Assembly (NCBI GenBank): GCA_902728285.1
Contig: CACVBU010000951.1
Coordinates: forward strand, 97,911 to 161,910
Direction: 5' to 3'
DNA: 64,000 bases
Source: Clytia hemisphaerica
Taxonomy: Eukaryota > Cnidaria > Hydrozoa > Leptothecata > Clytiidae
The position numbers and the translations under genes were made by a program. Positions 13,701 through 43,659 of this stretch are shown piece after piece. Positions within the stretch are counted from its first letter, which is position 1; each line of letters begins with the position of its first letter. The notes beneath the pieces are model-generated. The model was not told the origin of the DNA and made no database searches. It saw only the letters and a program-made list of their open reading frames with translations.

Positions 13701-16700
13701 GCTTCTTGTCCAACCCAAAGTCTTTTCAATCACTTCAAATCTCATTTCAACCCTACCAAACGGCAAAACAGGCCAACCGAACTATCGAATGATGATCTTC
13801 CCCACTATGTTACACAACTTCGACAAATTTCAGCCACAACAAACATCAAAAGTGAACCCCCTGATACTGACGAGATAAGTCAACAAATTACGAAACTAAA
13901 AGTCAATAGAGCTTTCAACGATATTGACCTTATTCTAATCAAACGGCTCGATCGTCCAGTTATGCTTCAAGTGATACACAGAATGTCTTCCAATCTCTGG
14001 GAAAATCTTGACGTCCCGACTGCATGGGGGAATTCCCGTCTGCAAGCCATATGGAAAAAGAAAGGATCCAAAAAAGACCCCAAAAAGTATCGTGGGATAA
14101 GTATTGGCTCAACCGTTTGTAAACTCTTGATCAATTTAATTCTCGATCGACTTTGTCCTTGGTACGAGCTATAACTAAGCGACGAACAGAATGGTTTTCG
14201 GAAATATAGGGAAACAACTGAAGGAATATACACAATTAAACGGATCCAACAGATTACTGATCGAAAAAGACAGCACAGCCCCTCTTTCTCCTTTTCGTCG
14301 ACCTGATAGCAGCATTCGACCACATCCCTCGAGACTGGCTTTTCGAATCGATTCGTTTGCGATTCGATAACCGTCAATCACCCCACTGTTCGACATTCTT
14401 GATAAACTTTATCAAAATACAAGTCTAACTTACGAAGATGCAAATAAAACGTTTCAAACCTCATCTGGTGTCCGACAAGGAGGACCAGAAAGTCCCTTCT
14501 TGTTCAATCTCTATATTGACTTTGTCATGAGACTCTTCAAAGAAAAATCAAATGATATCAACTTTTTCAAGCACAAATATCGCATCAACTTGAAAAGTCT
14601 CACCCGAACACAGCGGTACCAAATACGAAATAAAAACATCCAAACGTTTGGACAAGCGGAACTCCCATGGATTGGGTATGCGGATGATTTAGTACTTTTC
14701 TTTACTGACAAAGAAAGTCTTTTATCTGGTTCTGAACTTCTATAAACCAAGTTTTCGAAAGTTTTGGGCTTTTAGTTAACAAACTCAAAACCAGAAACTA
14801 TGGTTCTGAATCACAAAATTCTTGAACAACACTATTAGGGAGGGGACTTAGAAAAAAACAATTGGTGGCATATGTACAAAAGCTGCCAAATTATATAAAA
14901 AGAAGAAAAAAATCAAAAATTTTGACCGGGGACCCTTTTCAGGGTCCCCCCGGGCCCCATTTCTGCGGGGTACCCAGCGCAACCCCGGACCAATAGTAGC
15001 CTAACACCAGCTTTCTCAAAACATAGTCATGTGGCATATCAAATTATCAGAAATTTTATGCTGATTCCAAAAAACATTAGTAGTAAGGGTCAGAAATAAA
15101 GCTAAAAAAAGTTATGACCATATCTTGGACCAGATTTTGAGTAAATTGCATAATTTGCAAGAAATTTGAATAGAATCTTGATTATGACTAACTATCATGT
15201 AGTTAGTAGTTAAACTTTGGCATAATTCTGGATAATTGAATGTAACTGTTTTCATGATATGAAGACATTTTCAGGTTTATTTAATTTTTTTTTGGAGAGA
15301 AGGATTATGAATGTAGACAAGGATGGTGAAGCTGAGGTACTTCGAACAAGAGCAAAAGATATTTTATCAAGCCAGAAATTGCCAAGTAAAAAATCAAAAC
15401 AAACACAGAGAAATAAAAAGTTTTCAATTGCAAAGAGCATCACAAACTGCCACATGAGTGGACAGATAAATGTAAAGATTGTAATACCTGTGTTAATTTT
15501 GAGATGTTGGAAAGATAACCTTTGGATGTTCTATCAAATGCCAAGAAAGCGTTGGAATATCTATTCGCCACTAAGATGGTCAATACAGGAAAGAATAAGA
15601 ATTTTGAAAAAACTGTTGCAAGAAGGGTGTTGTATTGAAATGGATTTATTGCAGTGTTTATCCAAAGAACTATTGAACAGTGGAGCACGATATCAAAAGA
15701 TTATTATTACAATTTTATAAATAATTAAAATAATATATAAATAGTTATGAATCATTGAAAAAAAGAAGCACTTCGAAGAAACCAGATGATTACTGGCCTA
15801 AGTTTGAGAAATACAGCTTAAAGAATTGTTTGACATTATTGGTAAGATTTCTTTTTGATTATTGAATAGTCAATTGCTAGGGCAAATTCTCTCCGAACTG
15901 ACAGTGATATCCAATTCAATTTTTTGTAATTTTTGTTTAGGTATACAAGTTGAGTTTAATCCATAGACCATGATTTATGGCACCTTTAAAATTTACATTT
16001 GCAGGATGCAGAATGAGGAGGCAGAATGGCAAGAGGTTGAGTTCAAGGGGGGGTTCAAAATGGGTTAAAAATATATTTTGAAGGCACCAGATCAGCTACC
16101 AGTATCTCAGTGGCAAGTCTTAAGAGCATCCTCAGGGAATTGGAAAGTTAAAAAAAGAGAGAGTCTATCAGTGAAACTGGTACGAAACCCTTCTACTGGC
16201 ATTTGTTTTTGGTTATTGTAAAATGTCCGGTCATTTTGCCACATTTTTACACCCAGGTTGTTTCTTGTAGCCTTACCCTTTCTTTTGAACTTTTAAATTA
16301 AATTTAGTACCAATCAATGACTGTACCCTACAATGCCTTTTCAAATGAAATTTAAACTTTAAAGGTGCCATCATGGTCTATGGATTGAACTCAACTTGTA
16401 TACCTAAACGAAAATTGCAAAGAATTGAATTGGATATCACTGTCAGTCCTAGGAGAGAATTTGCCCTAGCAATGGACTATTCAATAATCAAAGAGAAATC
16501 TTTCCAATAATGTCAAACAATTCTTTAACCTATTTGCTTAAAATCATCTGTTTTTTTGAAGTGCTTCTTTTTTTCAATAATTCATAATTATTTAATAATG
16601 TTTTAATATCGTGCTCCGATGTTCGATAGTTCTTTGGATAAACATTGTAAAAAATCCATTGCAATACAACACCCTTTTCAACAGCTTTTTCAAAATTCTC

Positions 16701-19700
16701 ATTCTTTCCTGTATTGACCATCTTAGTGGTGAGAATAGATATTTCAACGCTTTCTTGGCATTTGGTAAAGAACATCCAAAGGTTATCTTTACAATCATTC
16801 TGTCCACTCATGTGGCAGTTTGTGATGCTCTTTACAATTGAAAAACTTTTTATTCCTTGATTTTTTACTTTGCAATTTCTGGCTTGATAAAATATATGTA
16901 TCATCACAAGCGATTTGAAGTACAAATAAAACGGAGCGTTCTTGAGACGTTCCTGAACGTTCACGAACGTTCCATAGCGTTCCAGAACGTCCTCGATCGT
17001 TCTAAAACGTTCAGGGACGTTTCTGAACGTTCCAGAACGTTCAACAACGTTCCAGAACGCTCGAGAACGTCCCGGAACGCTCGCGAACCATCTTTTGAGT
17101 CTAAAGGTTAATATTGACTCAATAAGAACGTTATTGAACGTTTGAGAACGTTCGAGAACGTTATGGAACGTTCAGGAACGCTTCCGAACGTTTTTTGACA
17201 TCCTTAAACTTGTAAATAAAAGGGAATGACCAGGAATGTTTAAGAACGTTCTCTAGCGTTCTTAGAAAGTTCCTAAAAGTTCAAGAGCGTTCCATATCGT
17301 TCGTCTTGCTGGAACGTTCCATTTCATTCGTATTTAAAGTTGCTTGTGATGACACATATTTTGCTCTTGTTCAATACAAAGTATCTCAGCTTCACATTCA
17401 TAATCCTTCTCTCTAAAGAAAACTTAAATAAACCTGAAAATGTCTTCATATCATGAAAACAGTTACATTCAATAAACCAGAATTTTGTCAAAGTTTAACT
17501 ACTAACTACATGAAATGTTAGTCATAATCAAGATTCTATTCGAATTTCTTGCGAATTATGCAATTTACTCAAAATCTGGTCCAAGATGTGGTCATAACTT
17601 TTTTTAGCTTTATTTCTGACCCCTACTACTAATGTTTTTTGGAATCAGCATAGAATTTCTGATAATTTGATATGCCACATGACTATGTTTTAAGAAAGTT
17701 GGTGTTAGGCTATTTTTGGTCCGGGGTCGCGCTGAGTACCCCGCAGAAATGGGGCCCGGGGGGACCCTGAAAAGGGTCCCCGGTCAAAATTTTTGATTTT
17801 TTTCTTCTTTTTATATAATTTGGCAGCTTTTGTACATATGCCACTAAATTCTTTCTAATTTTCTTTTTTTAAGTCCCCTCCCTAACACTATCACAACACA
17901 ATCATCTCACTCGACGAGACACCAATCAAAAACGTCACCAACTTCACATACCTTGGATCGATAATTAGTCATGACGAGCCTAATACCGGAAATGCAGAAG
18001 TCAATAATCGCATTCAAATAGCATCTGCTAAATTCAACGAAATGTCTAACCTCCTTCAAAATCAACGAATGAACCTTTGCACCCGAATGAACTTCCTCAA
18101 TAGTTTTGTGAGAAGTCGGCTTACGTACGCGTGTCAAAACTGGAACCTAACGAAAAATGAATTTGAAAGATTGAATGTTAGTTATCGTTCTTTTCTTCGG
18201 CGAATGATACGTAATGGTCGAAAGTTTGTAAATCCGACTGAAAATGATTATCGTTTGATTATATCTAATCAACGTCTAAACGAAATTTGTCAGACACGTG
18301 AGTTAGAATTCTTCATAAGAGATCAACAAAAGAACTATATGTCACATGTTATTCGAATGAACGTGGAACGTTCAATCAAACAGCTGGCTTTTAATGATGA
18401 TAAATATACGAAACGAGGAAGGCTTGTGAGAACTCTACTCGACCAGGTCTTAGATAACTTAGATATTTCTATTGATGAATTTTGCACTCTTGCCCTTAAG
18501 GGCAAGAATTAAAATTTGATGGAGAGATGTGTGACTGAGAACACAGGGACTTATCCCAGGTTTCCTCTCCTTGCACATCTCTCCATCTCTGTTTAACCTA
18601 GGAATAGGGATACAGTAAATTTTATATAACGACTCAACGGAACCAACGGAAAAACAGAGGAAAGACAGCGGTAGGCCGAGTATTAATGAAGATACAGGAT
18701 CCTATTTTATTGGCTGTTAAACAATTGTTGAAATTATTGTTTTGATTGGAAGTGCGCAAATCTGATTGGCTAACCTTATCAACGGCTTTTTTGGCACGAA
18801 ATTCAAACCAAATATAAACAAATTCACACTGGGTCATCAAAAATACCATACTCTCACTGAGTAGCTTCTAATGGTTTTTTTTATTATGCGGTGTAAGTTT
18901 TGGTTAGAGAGTATGGATCTCCAGACTATTACAATGGTATAGGCCAAGGGAATCTTAAAATATCGCCTAACTCTTTTCTGGGGGAGTCTGTGAGAGCCTG
19001 TATGGTTTTACTCACGCTGAAAAAAGGCGTACCTGCAACAATTTCAAGCCTAAGTTGAGTGAAGGTGGTTGTTAACGTTTGATATAAATCACAAGTCATG
19101 CATATATCAATAACTACAGGCTCATTCAGGTCCACCAGGCTACCACTGTTCCTCTTGAACGTTTTCATCAATGCACGACGAAGGATTCCACCTGGAAGTA
19201 AAATGTTGAGAATCAGTGGGTTAGATATTTAGGGTAAGTAAACGATTACTATTGAAGAAGTAGTTCTGGATAAAAAATTAGATTAAGTGCACCTTTCAAT
19301 CTAAGCTTTCTGGTACAAAGAAGGAAATCAGAATTTTCGTGTCATGTGTGGACAAGCCCTTGCTTTAAAAAGGAGATATTCCTTCTTGGACTAAAGTTTG
19401 AAGAAATAGAGTTCCAACTAAAACTGGTATTTTCCAAGCATCTTCAGAAATAAAAAGTTGTCAAAATTCAGATATCACAAAAAATACCTTTTGAATCTGA
19501 TCCATCCCCACCAGAAGTGATGACCGCTTCTGATTCACTCAATGTTGGTAAACTCTCAAAGAAATATCCAACCAAGGGCTGTTTCCATAGCAACTGTAAT
19601 TGACTCAGAATATGGTAACTTGAATCTTGAATAGACCTTAAAAAAGACGAAATAATCATCCCTTTTAAAACTAAATTGGCATATGTTTGCTTTTGTGTTA

Positions 19701-32010: not shown

Positions 32011-32689
32011 GTCTGGAATGTCGGTGAACAACCCTTGTCGAGGTACAAGGTAAGAAAAAAGAGCTAATCCTCTGTGGAAATTCACTTTAAAGCATATTTC
32101 ATTTCATCAAGGATTTCATCGATACTTAACATGTCATTTCTGCTCTCTGTGAAGAAAAAGGAAGACAACGCAGTGTCATTTTATCAAGATAAAAAAGACC
32201 GCCATTCTTGGGCAACATTTTCTCTCCTTTTTTGCAACATTTAAATGAAAAAGAAGACATTCCAATGCTTATTACGTGATAGAAATCTCCCACGCTCTAA
32301 GAAAAGCTCTGATTTTCATTTTTACAATGTATATAACCTTTTCTTAAAATTAAAGAAGGACGGAAGTAGAAAAACGTGCAAGTTTTCGTACTAAACGCTA
32401 GTGACGAACGCTACCTTCTTAAAACGCTCGTTGCATAAACGAGTCGAATTCTACGTTTATAACGAACGCTTTGGAAAAGAAAGTCGCTCGAAAACCCCTG
32501 TCTCTTACTCTATTCTTTATCGAATGCTTTCTCCGTAACTTTTACGAGTACGTGTTTTTTTATAAGCATTGCGCTTATATAAGCATATCTAGGCTCATGT
32601 ATGGCAAAAATTTTAGAGTTTTTCAGAATTTGTTTGCTTTTGGCTGGATTTTCGAAATTTCTCTAAAATTAATCGCTTTTTTCGAATCG

Positions 32690-33040
32690 CTTTCTTTGCA
32701 ACTTTTAAGAGAGTTTCTAAGATCACTTTTATCAAATCGCTTTCTTCGTAACTTTTAAGAGTGTTTCAAAGATCACTTTTATCAAATCGCTTTTTTCGAA
32801 ACTTTTAAGAGTGTTTCAAAGATCACTTTTATCAAATCGCTTCGTTTGTAACTTTTAAGAGTGCTTCTAAGATCACTTTTATCAAATTGCTTTCTTCGTA
32901 ACTTTTCAGAGTGTTTCTAAGATCACTTTTATCAAATCGCTGTTTTCGAAACTTTTAAGAGTGTTTCAAAGATCACTTTTATCAAATCACTTTCATCGTA
33001 ACTTTTAAGAGTGTTTCAAATATCACTTTTATCAAAGTCC
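32690..33040 (+). repeat. 50-bp tandem repeat, about seven copies
   Basis: The words GATCACTTTTATCAAATCGC and AACTTTTAAGAGTGTTTC recur with an exact 50-bp period, for example GATCACTTTT at 32721, 32771, 32821, 32871, 32921 and 32971, and TATCACTTTT at 33021. Copies differ by a few bases. The array lies inside the CACTA-like element; no coding meaning is apparent. Confidence 0.9.
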
Positions 33041-36809: not shown

Positions 36810-37361
36810 TTAATTGTCCATAATGACATTGAAATCCGTAATATTTTTGTGTATAAAACGTTCATAATGTTTGAAAAATGTTGTCTCCTTCTTCCAACAT
36901 GCTAATCGTAACACTTCCTCGAGGTCAATGTTTAATGCCAGCGCCTTTGATGTACTTGCAGAACGGCAGCTGTGAGCAGAAAAATTAAAAATACCTGCTT
37001 TGGTTAATGTGTCTTTGACCCACCTTCTAAGAGAGTCTGTTGAAGCAGCTCTGTAAGGTTTCTTAGTGGTAATAAAGAGCTTTGTCACTTCTTTAGGTGC
37101 AAGCTTATTCCTACAGTTTAGGTAGGTTGCCATGGCCTGAACTACACATAATTTTTCATTTTCAAGATAGGCACTGTATTTAAACACGTCACCTCTCCGG
37201 TTTTGTGTGGAGTGTTTAAGTACATTGGAAGGGGTGATGGTGACTCCTATATTGCTGGCCATGATTTCATCCACATGAAAATTGAAGGCCGTATTAATCC
37301 TCGCACCGTTCAATAGTAATAAAAGACATAAAGTTTGATCTGGATCGACGTTGTCTCTCAT
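36810..37361 (-). pseudogene. Tyrosine recombinase catalytic-domain fragment (DIRS/Crypton-like)
   Basis: The 183-codon frame reads through the C-terminal catalytic domain of an eukaryotic tyrosine recombinase. It shows LLLLLNGARINTAF with the first catalytic arginine, then FSAHSCRSASTSKALALNID with the His-x-x-Arg motif, and CWKKETTFFKHYER with the final His-Tyr. These enzymes cut and rejoin DNA through the tyrosine and mobilise DIRS-like retrotransposons and Cryptons. No N-terminal domain or reverse transcriptase is nearby, so it is a remnant. Perfect inverted repeats containing CTTTCCGAAGCGTAGCATAA bound it (36631-36664 and 37358-37390). Inverted terminal repeats favour a DIRS origin over Crypton, but the evidence is thin. 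Confidence 0.75.
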
Positions 37362-41470: not shown

Positions 41471-41546
41471 ATTATTTATTTATATACCGTGAGTGGTCTT
41501 AAATCTGACAGCCCTGCCTAAATCCAATGGGGTCTTTTAAAGATAC

Positions 41547-42642
41547 CCAGGCGGTGTCAATCAAACAACTTCAAACAAAAAAGCGCAATCGAACCAAGCG
41601 AACCTAATCGAACGCGATAATTGTGTTTGGTTGTCGAACGTAATCAAATCTCAATCGAACGGCCGATTCCTGGGTAATATTCGATTGTGTTCGATTGCGT
41701 TGGAGTAAGGTTAGATTAGTTCGATTGATAGTTGAACTATGTTCGATTGTCATTTGCATTCGAATAATCTTCGATTTCGTTCAATTAGGATTATGTTTGA
41801 TGAGTTTGATTAAACTCCGTTAGGGCTTTTTTCCGCTTTTTAGCAGGTGGCCGAGTGCTTAAGTACCGTACCAAAGCGAATAAAATCTATGATTGAATCA
41901 ATCGAACGTAATTGAATACAATTGAATGTAATCGAATCAATCGAACAGCAAATCCTGGGTAATTCAGGGGGGGTCTTGCAGTTACTCCTTGACACTATGT
42001 GGAGTAACTGCAATTTTGGACATTTTCTACAGACACCACCACCCTTGCAGTTATTCCATAGTGTACTAACTGATTTTACCCTCAAAATTGGTGTATACCA
42101 CCCCAAAAAATGCCAAATTTGGCAATTTTTTCACTGAATTCCTCATTTTTGATACCATTTTACTGGGTACGTCTTATTAACGACCGTTCAAGAGTTAAAT
42201 ATCTCAATAATTTTCCAAGTTTGTTAAAATATCTTTCATGCCTTGATTGAAGAAAAAATTTATGTTTTTTTTTTACTTTTGAAAAAAATGTTTTGAATTT
42301 TTTTGCTTCCGGAATTTTTAAAAACCTAAAATTTTAAGTGAAAAATAAAAAAATGTGCTCACTTAGTACACCATATCCTACCAAAATCGACAATTTTGGG
42401 CTTAGGCACCACCCATGTTGCAGTTAGTCCACTGGTGGAGTAACTGTTTTCCCAAATTTTGGTTTATATACCACCACGGTAGTAATTGTCATAGTGTTTA
42501 TATAATAACTGCATGACCCCCCCCCCTGGGTAATTTTCGATTGCAATTCAATTGCGTTCGACAATCGAATTGCAATTATTCGATTGCGTTCAATTGCGCT
42601 CAATTGATTTGGCGTTCAATTCATTCGATTGACACCGTCTGG
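41547..42642. mobile_element. TIR element A (CCAGRCGGTGTCAATC family), 6-bp target duplication
   Basis: Ends CCAGGCGGTGTCAATC and, on the opposite strand, CCAGACGGTGTCAATC. AGATAC occurs at 41541-41546 and again at 42643-42648, and only once in the intact host MITE at 35091. The body is built from many variants of AATCGAACGTAATCGA. The family resembles no element I can name; 6-bp duplications are unusual (Dada-type elements make 6-7 bp). Confidence 0.85.
41965..42526. mobile_element. 562-bp G-run-ended TIR element nested in element A, 9-bp target duplication
   Basis: The left end reads CAGGGGGGGTCTTGCAGTTA and the right end, on the opposite strand, a G run then GTCATGCAGTTA. TGGGTAATT is present on both sides (41956-41964 and 42527-42535) and occurs once at the matching place elsewhere in the host repeat (near 41670). 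Inside, GCAGTTA-TCC and GGAGTAACTG words recur. A 9-bp duplication fits Mutator-like elements; no protein is encoded. Confidence 0.8.
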
Positions 42643-43154
42643 AGATACAAACTAAAATGAAAATCAACGAAGACTGTGACTCAACAAAGATACCAAAGTG
42701 TCAACTAAACAGAGAGATTTGATACACTGAACCAATTGAACTAAATAACAATAATTGCTTCTTGTACAAAACATAATTTTTTATTACAAAATTGTTAATT
42801 TTTTAATGAAATTTTTTTTATTGTTATTTTAAACACGAGCAGCAGATTCAGAATAATAAAGGTAATTATTTTTACAACTTACACTTTTTGATCACATTAA
42901 TTGACATCTTGACATTATAGTCATCTTGTTAGATGCAGGTTAAATGTTTTGTTTCGAGAGTTCTTGCAATAGTAGTTTATTGTTCAACTTGAAGAGGGAA
43001 TGTTTGTAAACATAGAATTTTTTTTCATAACAGTTATTTGGGAGGTCAGATTTAGGCAGGTCTGTCGGATTTAGGACCACTCACGGTATAAAGGATTCCC
43101 AAAAATCACTTCCCTTAAAATAATAATTTTCTCAGGATTTCTAAGTGCATTGCC

Positions 43155-43493
43155 ATGACTATGTTCAATTACATTCGATTGATTCATTGTATTCGATTTT
43201 ATTCACTCTCGAGTACCATACTTAAGCGCTCGGCTGTCCATGCTAAAAAAGCTCTAAAGGAGTGGTCAAATTTAATTAATTGCAATCAAACTTATCAAAC
43301 ATAATTGTAATCGAACATAATCAAAGATCAATGGGAAGGTAATTTACAATCAATCGAAGATTACTTGCACGCAATTGAACACAATCGAATATTACCCAAG
43401 AAGCGTTTGACAATCGAATTGCACTTATTTGATCTCGTTTGATTACGTTCAATTGCAATTTTCGTTTGAAGTTGTTAGATTGACACGGTCTGG
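43155..43493. mobile_element. TIR element B, truncated copy of the element A family
   Basis: The right end, read on the minus strand, is CCAGACCGTGTCAATC. The interior matches element A in reverse, including the GTACCATACTTAAG-type centre. The left terminus is missing or worn, and no target duplication was seen. It ends about 170 bp upstream of CFAP119. Confidence 0.65.
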
Positions 43494-43659
43494 GCATTGA
43501 AGGTCTCTCTTGGGAATCAAATCCATTGCTGAAGCCATTGCCATCTTAAAATAAAGAAAGACCAGTTTTTCTGGGCTATTTTTAGGCTTGTGGTTGAGAA
43601 AAAAATCAACATAATGATTAACCCCTAATCTTTGAATTTTATCTCTTAGAGCAAAAGAC

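Follow-up and report, generated by a model that had tools for sequence, protein, structure and literature searches.

The genome of the hydrozoan Clytia hemisphaerica harbours a small element with terminal inverted repeats (TIRs) whose body is an array of decamers resembling heat shock elements (HSEs), and long relatives with the same TIR carry arrays of the same 10-bp phasing at both ends. Here, we report the copies of this element and their target site duplications (TSDs), the family-specific sites at the ends of its long relatives, the constraint within the repeated units and the pairing of two genes in the long elements. The arrays probably serve as subterminal sites at which proteins of the transposon itself bind, with the small element as a non-autonomous member, a reading suggested by comparison with the long relatives. 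The element was found in a stretch of 64,000 nucleotides from contig CACVBU010000951.1, hereafter the window.

The element and its insertion site

A preliminary description of this DNA had noted a TIR element built of units with a strict 10-bp period, in which nGAAn and nTTCn pentamers alternate, and a near-empty site in a sister arm; the data given in this section and the next bear out all three observations. With its bounds refined (Table 1) the element measures 460 bp, and its two ends are alike at 14 of the 15 positions of the TIR core TGTRTCATCACAAGC. The ends at 16891–16941 and 17312–17362 are near-inverted, with 80% complementarity over 51 nt, six flanking bases counted in. The element was inserted in one arm of a palindrome of about 3 kb and the opposite arm holds the near-empty site, where GCAAAAGATATTTTATC is read against GCAAAA[TA..TA]TATTTTATC in the element-bearing arm, with one substitution.

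Table 1. Positions in the window of the small element, its parts and its host palindrome.
Feature	Position	Strand	Evidence and remarks
Host palindromic (foldback) element	14836..17884		ends TAGGGAGGGGACTTA; likely 7–8-bp duplication ACACTAT; about 3 kb
Near-empty site, sister arm	15352..15368	+	GA at 15358–15359 compared with TA in the other arm
Left target site duplication TA	16895..16896		sister-arm comparison; 2-bp TSD also in family copies
MITE-like, probably non-autonomous TIR element	16897..17356	+	TIRs, TSD, near-empty sister site, genome relatives
Left TIR	16897..16941	+	15-bp core TGTATCATCACAAGC and extended part; 39/45 identical to 5' end of the C575 long element
Array A, NNGAACGTTC-like decamers, period 10	16933..17092		Tandem Repeats Finder, HSE counts, unit alignment
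Array B, 7 units, period 10	17124..17193		Tandem Repeats Finder, unit alignment
Array C, looser units, chiefly CGTTC half-site	17232..17320 (about)		HSE counts, end and copy comparison
Right TIR	17312..17356	-	core TGTGTCATCACAAGC; 42/45 identical to 5' end of the C575 long element
Right target site duplication TA	17357..17358		sister-arm comparison

Segments of the two arms of the host palindrome are 85–95% alike, and its CpG observed/expected ratio is 0.37, compared with 0.83 for the window once the small element is left out. To its left lies an endonuclease-reverse-transcriptase open reading frame (PF14529), this being the only domain above the cut-off when ten open reading frames of the window were searched against Pfam. 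To its right is a reading that we take, by eye, to be reverse-transcriptase-like and that has no Pfam match. Elsewhere in the window a 50-bp tandem repeat occupies 32672–33036 (7.3 copies, 89% matches), and a 183-aa open frame at 36810–37361 on the minus strand, without a Pfam match, presumably resembles the C-terminus of a tyrosine recombinase, as judged by eye.

Phased arrays and their likeness to heat shock elements

The arrays repeat NNGAACGTTC with a period of 10 bp. This period was assigned by Tandem Repeats Finder to 16947–17079 (13.3 copies) and to 17125–17172 (4.8 copies), and self-identity of the element was 0.51 at lag 10 compared with 0.17–0.30 at the remaining lags within 5–15. 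The motif GAACGTTC occurs ten times in the window, eight of them inside the element, whereas shuffled windows gave a mean of 0.94 and a maximum of 4. Similarly, seven of the eight perfect three-pentamer HSEs in the window fall within these 460 bp. When HSE likeness was scored by the alternation of nGAAn and nTTCn pentamers, runs of at least three alternating pentamers in 5-bp register were present in the element, and at none of six settings did any of 500 shuffles that preserved its dinucleotides reach the observed count. Imperfect units also exist, the first G being kept in 18 and the last C in 15 of the 21 units of arrays A and B. For these two arrays the observed count was reached in 0 of 1000 sets of letter-shuffled decamers and in 2 to 8 of 2000 column-permuted sets; a comparison with shuffled decamers had been proposed in the preliminary description.

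A scan of GTDB genomes for GAACGTTCNNGAACGTTC returned 74 stretches, near the chance estimate of about 60, and among the 76 sequences made up of these and two viral contigs (longer pattern) the best array score was 9, compared with 30 in the window.

Copies in the genome

The array had been described as apparently mobile in itself, and a genome search for further copies found relatives of the small element at 40 places in the 417-Mb genome, the window copy and three tandem copies counted (of 185 first-look candidates, 40 were scored). Of the 37 copy stretches examined, 30 showed both TIRs and 7 did not. Mobility of the element as a unit is evident from the exact 2-bp TSD present in 28 of 31 copies, a set to which the window contributes its copy and the tandem trio a single one; none of these duplications extends to 3 bp. 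They comprise TA (10), TT (8), AA (5), AT (4) and TC (1). Tc1/mariner elements make a strict TA target duplication, and an origin among them, as suggested by the window copy alone, is ruled out by this spectrum with TA in 10 of 28. Helitrons are without TIR and without TSD, and membership of that group is ruled out by the presence of both.

The TIR pattern matched 101 sites in the genome, compared with 0 for the same pattern read backwards. Twenty further stretches were drawn from these matches, and 18 of them contained at least three GAACGTTC sites within one mismatch while lag 10 was the top lag in 17; one stretch belonged to family 2 (see below) and one was without either array. At C523:303814–307675 three copies with identical ends and lengths recur at a spacing of about 1.68 kb, and here the small element has joined a tandemly repeated unit.

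Long relatives and sister families

Five long pairs of the same TIR, 7–17 kb apart (C386, C508, C575, C594 and C662), have 10-bp-phased arrays at both ends, with GAACGTTC in one pair and GACCGGTC in four. In the 15.8-kb C575 element (family 1) each end carries the TIR with GGAACGTTCC arrays adjoining it, and the two ends hold 12 and 18 GAACGTTC sites within one mismatch against an expectation of about 1.1. In family 2 (C386, C508, C594, C662 and one end on C894) the TIR is followed by GGATAACAT and GACCG/CGGTC arrays with a period of 10. Each of nine family-2 ends has GACCGGTC within one mismatch 2–6 times, which 0 of 300 shuffles reached for any end. Between families 1 and 2 the site thus changes from GAAC.GTTC to GACC.GGTC, by which the CG is kept and the heat-shock core is gone; HSE-like triplets number 13–25 in three family-1 ends versus 0–2 in the nine family-2 ends. 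The latter retain 1–3 GAACGTTC-like sites, a number that for C508 5', C662 5' and C894 no more than 1 of 300 shuffles attained.

Family 3 (C850 and its near copy C558) was found by way of the BEN-like gene described below, with one end seen, and has CGGCC sites. Its TIR, TGTGTCACTGCAAGCGATTTGG, differs at 3 of 15 positions and lies alongside TTCGGCC units, with CG in 7 of the 7 units of the best block. The two family-3 ends, which are nearly identical, have 10-bp-phased CG-containing arrays with no HSE-like triplet. A fourth family (C857) has CGAAC units at a spacing of about 10 bp close to its gene, and the 2.6 kb adjoining that gene yielded no TIR-like sequence with fewer than 5 mismatches in 15. 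A TIR-like pair (GGCGGTGTCAATC ... GATTGACACCGTC/GATTGACACGGTC) in the window itself, at 41543–43497, encloses many TCGAAY/TCGATT units at a spacing of about 10 bp and appears, from its sequence, to represent another family built in the same way.

Lag 10 was the best of lags 6–14 in all 12 ends examined, and in the best block of each of eight arrays CG was present in 7/7 units (five arrays) or 5/7 units (three arrays). By a fixed definition of a phased CpG array (lag 10 top with a value of 0.40 or more, and 8 or more CpG per 150 bp), none was found in 1049 windows from seven interior stretches of the long elements. Control windows fitted it in 9 of 4563 cases, 8 of which represent a similar array elsewhere in the 64-kb window.

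Genes of the long elements

C575 encodes an open frame of 312 aa with 135 matching pieces in the genome. We call this protein transposase-like, and infer that it is a transposase, because its gene lies within TIR elements, exists in many copies and is better conserved than the second gene of these elements. No Pfam family was found for it at E up to 1; six aligned members, covering mostly the N-terminal part, gave neither a transposase family nor a THAP match among the Pfam hits, and a search against PDB gave a single hit at E 1.5. The second protein of C575 has 290 aa, the last 90 or so of which recur at 22 loci, C575 counted. With a seven-member profile of this part (A1) the BEN domain of BANP made up the three best PDB hits, at a weak E of 0.13–0.2; of the other profiles, A4 gave BANP at E 0.42–0.65 and A3 gave no BANP hit. 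The Pfam BEN family (PF10523) matches one of the seven members, also weakly (E 0.13). These hits suggest that the C-terminal domain of the 290-aa protein is related to BEN.

Both genes were found in the C386, C575, C594 and C662 elements, and in C508 only the BEN-like one. A transposase-like match lies within 12 kb of 13 of the 22 BEN-like loci, compared with a chance of about 0.5% per locus, for a limit chosen after the distances had been seen and with split transposase-like matches mostly counted once; at the other nine loci, C508 included, no such match lies within 12 kb. A phased CpG array was also predicted beforehand beside three further BEN-like genes (C558, C792 and C897), and the prediction held in full for one of them, C558, which is a near copy of C850 and hardly independent. 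Near the C792 gene a CpG-rich AGCGGCC repeat (C792:805400–806600) has uneven spacing and no 10-bp period, and the expected CGAAC motif was not found there; no phased CpG array was seen in the 1.2 kb beside the C897 gene.

Relative to family 1, the transposase-like protein is 73–74% identical in C386 and C594, 64% identical over 171 aa in C662 and 60–61% identical in family 3, while the BEN-like domain is only 42–45% identical in family 2 and 28–31% in family 3. The BEN-like domain thus diverges more than its partner, as the sites do, which supports the BEN-like protein as the reader of the sites. The arrays could instead be read by the transposase-like protein itself, the BEN-like protein being otherwise employed. 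The THAP domain of the Galileo transposase offers a precedent, with multiple sites in long repetitive TIRs (PMC3688188), and a CxC motif is present at the N-terminus of the transposase-like protein in the three of six aligned members that extend so far. The sites differ between families, however, although this protein is the more conserved one, and we regard such a role for it as possible but rather unlikely.

Constraint within the units

Information content across the 21 units of arrays A and B is 0.07 and 0.18 bits at the two NN positions, compared with 2.0 and 1.72 bits at the central C and G. Identity between the units of array A is 0.15–0.42 for NN at lags 1–10 (0.27 at lag 1; 8 to 26 comparisons per lag) and 0.75–0.81 for the core, and in array B it is 0–0.25 and 0.85–0.88, respectively. 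Since NN is near background while the core is held, a recent tandem expansion cannot account for the array. In the family consensus 33 units were selected that had 6 or more of 8 matches, and in these the central CG between GAA and TTC is the best-kept pair (64/66), compared with 51/66 for the outer G/C (Fisher p 0.0012, the units not being independent).

Differences between individual copies were counted in 20 close copies; of the 26 in the alignment, four that had diverged and two that were tandem duplicates were set aside. CpG columns differ from the consensus in 104 of 1617 cells and other columns in 248 of 7473, so that the former change about twice as fast. By class, change is most frequent at NN (86/955), followed in our counts by centre C (42/613), outer C (39/611), outer G (35/611) and centre G (21/611). 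We read the change at CpG as probable post-insertion decay, superimposed on an ancestral sequence whose CG had been preserved.

The preliminary description interpreted the alternating pentamers as a pattern for heat shock factor (HSF), and of this the HSE-like alternation is supported while HSF as the purpose of the array is not. A true HSE array might be kept where HSF binding helps the element, through chromatin opening or stress-tied mobilisation, as for the HSEs of Caenorhabditis Helitrons, where HSF-1 binds HSE-like motifs in C. elegans that are consistent with tandem overlapping HSEs (PMC6927752). The alternation is near-ideal and far above shuffles. Furthermore, the structural account of HSF describes some contact to the base preceding TTC and a TTC-nn-GAA linker that is often pyrimidine-purine (PMC8379338), with which the C at the first NN position in 8 of 21 units and the A at the second in 10 of 21 agree mildly. 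In the same account the G of GAA is the most conserved base and the GAA-nn-TTC linker is unconstrained, but here that linker is best kept and the outer G/C are the worst kept of the core. The constraint in the family consensus is thus the reverse of that expected from HSF contacts. The preliminary description had also named the loss of GAAnnTTC alternation in other copies as evidence against HSF, and precisely this is found in same-phased sister families whose TIR is identical or related (0–2 HSE-like triplets in nine family-2 and two family-3 ends). The position of the C575 arrays at both ends, adjoining the TIR, is likewise at odds with it. HSF as the selector of the array was rejected on the constraint pattern and the sister families; it probably did not shape the arrays, and their maintenance as true HSEs is improbable.

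Even so, HSF is likely to bind the arrays of the window family in vitro, because the GAACGTTCTAGAAC form is a proven artificial HSE, employed in reporters and HSF1 probes (PMC4326385). HSF binding may then be a by-product of the transposon site, and a side effect on stress expression near element copies is possible. That the array is kept for structure without a bound protein (foldback hairpin, nucleosome positioning or decaying tandem expansion) is improbable, for although the single strand of the element forms a far more stable fold than its shuffled versions (100 shuffles, z -10.95) and unit number often differs between copies in 10-bp steps, a hairpin or plain expansion should keep NN like the core, and the CpG centres are kept in the consensus even though CpG columns change faster than average between copies.

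Relation to known systems

Among described transposons, CACTA elements of plants (En/Spm, Tam1, Tgm) are similar in being large (8–20 kb), with conserved short TIRs, variable subterminal repeats and non-autonomous deletion derivatives, and methylation is tied to loss of binding in them (PMC2613891, PMC4219821). They combine a conserved transposase with a divergent protein that binds the variable subterminal repeats (PMC2613891, PMC4219821), and it is by this combination that the present arrays are read as transposon docking sites. In contrast to CACTA, the TIR here has TGTGTCA ends (TGTGTCATCACAAGC) and lacks the CACTA ends described (PMC4219821), the TSD is 2 bp and not 3 bp, no convincing Pfam transposase match is found, the candidate DNA-binding protein is BEN-like and the sites are phased at 10 bp. 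The analogy is therefore one of working and not of descent, since membership fails on TIR and TSD.

Galileo-type elements also contain internal tandem repeats near their ends that hold extra transposase sites (PMC3688188, PMC4079207), but have a THAP transposase and TIRs much longer than the 15–45 bp found here. Caenorhabditis Helitrons are comparable in that HSE-like motifs, apparently in tandem, are spread by a transposon (PMC6927752); the present elements differ by their TIRs and TSD, by HSE likeness confined to one of the families seen and by a constraint at variance with HSF contacts. BANP and BEND3 favour DNA in which CpG motifs are unmethylated (PMC11472053), and a BEN relation of the transposon protein is suggested by the profile; the similarity reaches only E 0.13 and the protein is here found in mobile elements. 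In the open-access literature we found no paper that brings together the BEN domain, DNA transposons, transposases and terminal inverted repeats and none linking miniature inverted-repeat elements with heat shock elements and HSF, and the one paper that combines HSEs, MITEs, tandem repeats and transposable elements is a general review.

Proposed working of the arrays and implications

Under the docking-site reading the window element would be a non-autonomous member of a DNA transposon family whose long, same-TIR elements (7–17 kb) encode two proteins, one transposase-like and the other BEN-like in its C-terminal domain. The phased GAACGTTC arrays are candidate docking sites for these proteins, and the likeliest to dock is the BEN-like one, which would load side by side on one helix face at each end, a spacing near one helical turn lining up the bound proteins on that face. 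Once loaded, it could assist the transposase in pairing the ends and cutting them, in the manner of TNPA on CACTA subterminal repeats. The centre CpG would be the main recognition feature, and loading could be methylation-sensitive. HSE likeness would follow from the family-1 site (GAAC/GTTC) and is absent from the sister families. That proteins bind the arrays, which of the two does so and the role of methylation are matters of inference.

In a wider and more tentative view, to which we give somewhat less than even credence, the elements could constitute an undescribed superfamily of animal DNA transposons with 2-bp TSD, TGTGTCA ends and a transposase without a Pfam family. A BEN-type protein would there read helically phased, CpG-centred subterminal arrays as an independent counterpart of the plant CACTA TNPA system. 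The site code would diverge by family and in one have drifted onto the HSE, so that copies offer HSF a ready-made array.

If these readings are true, a striking, regulatory-looking pattern is a transposon docking array, and one genome holds several families whose ends are related and equally phased and whose sites, lying beside their candidate readers, differ. The co-evolution of a transposon DNA-binding protein and its site would then be directly testable, and a transposon's own binding code could coincide with a stress-response element of its host.
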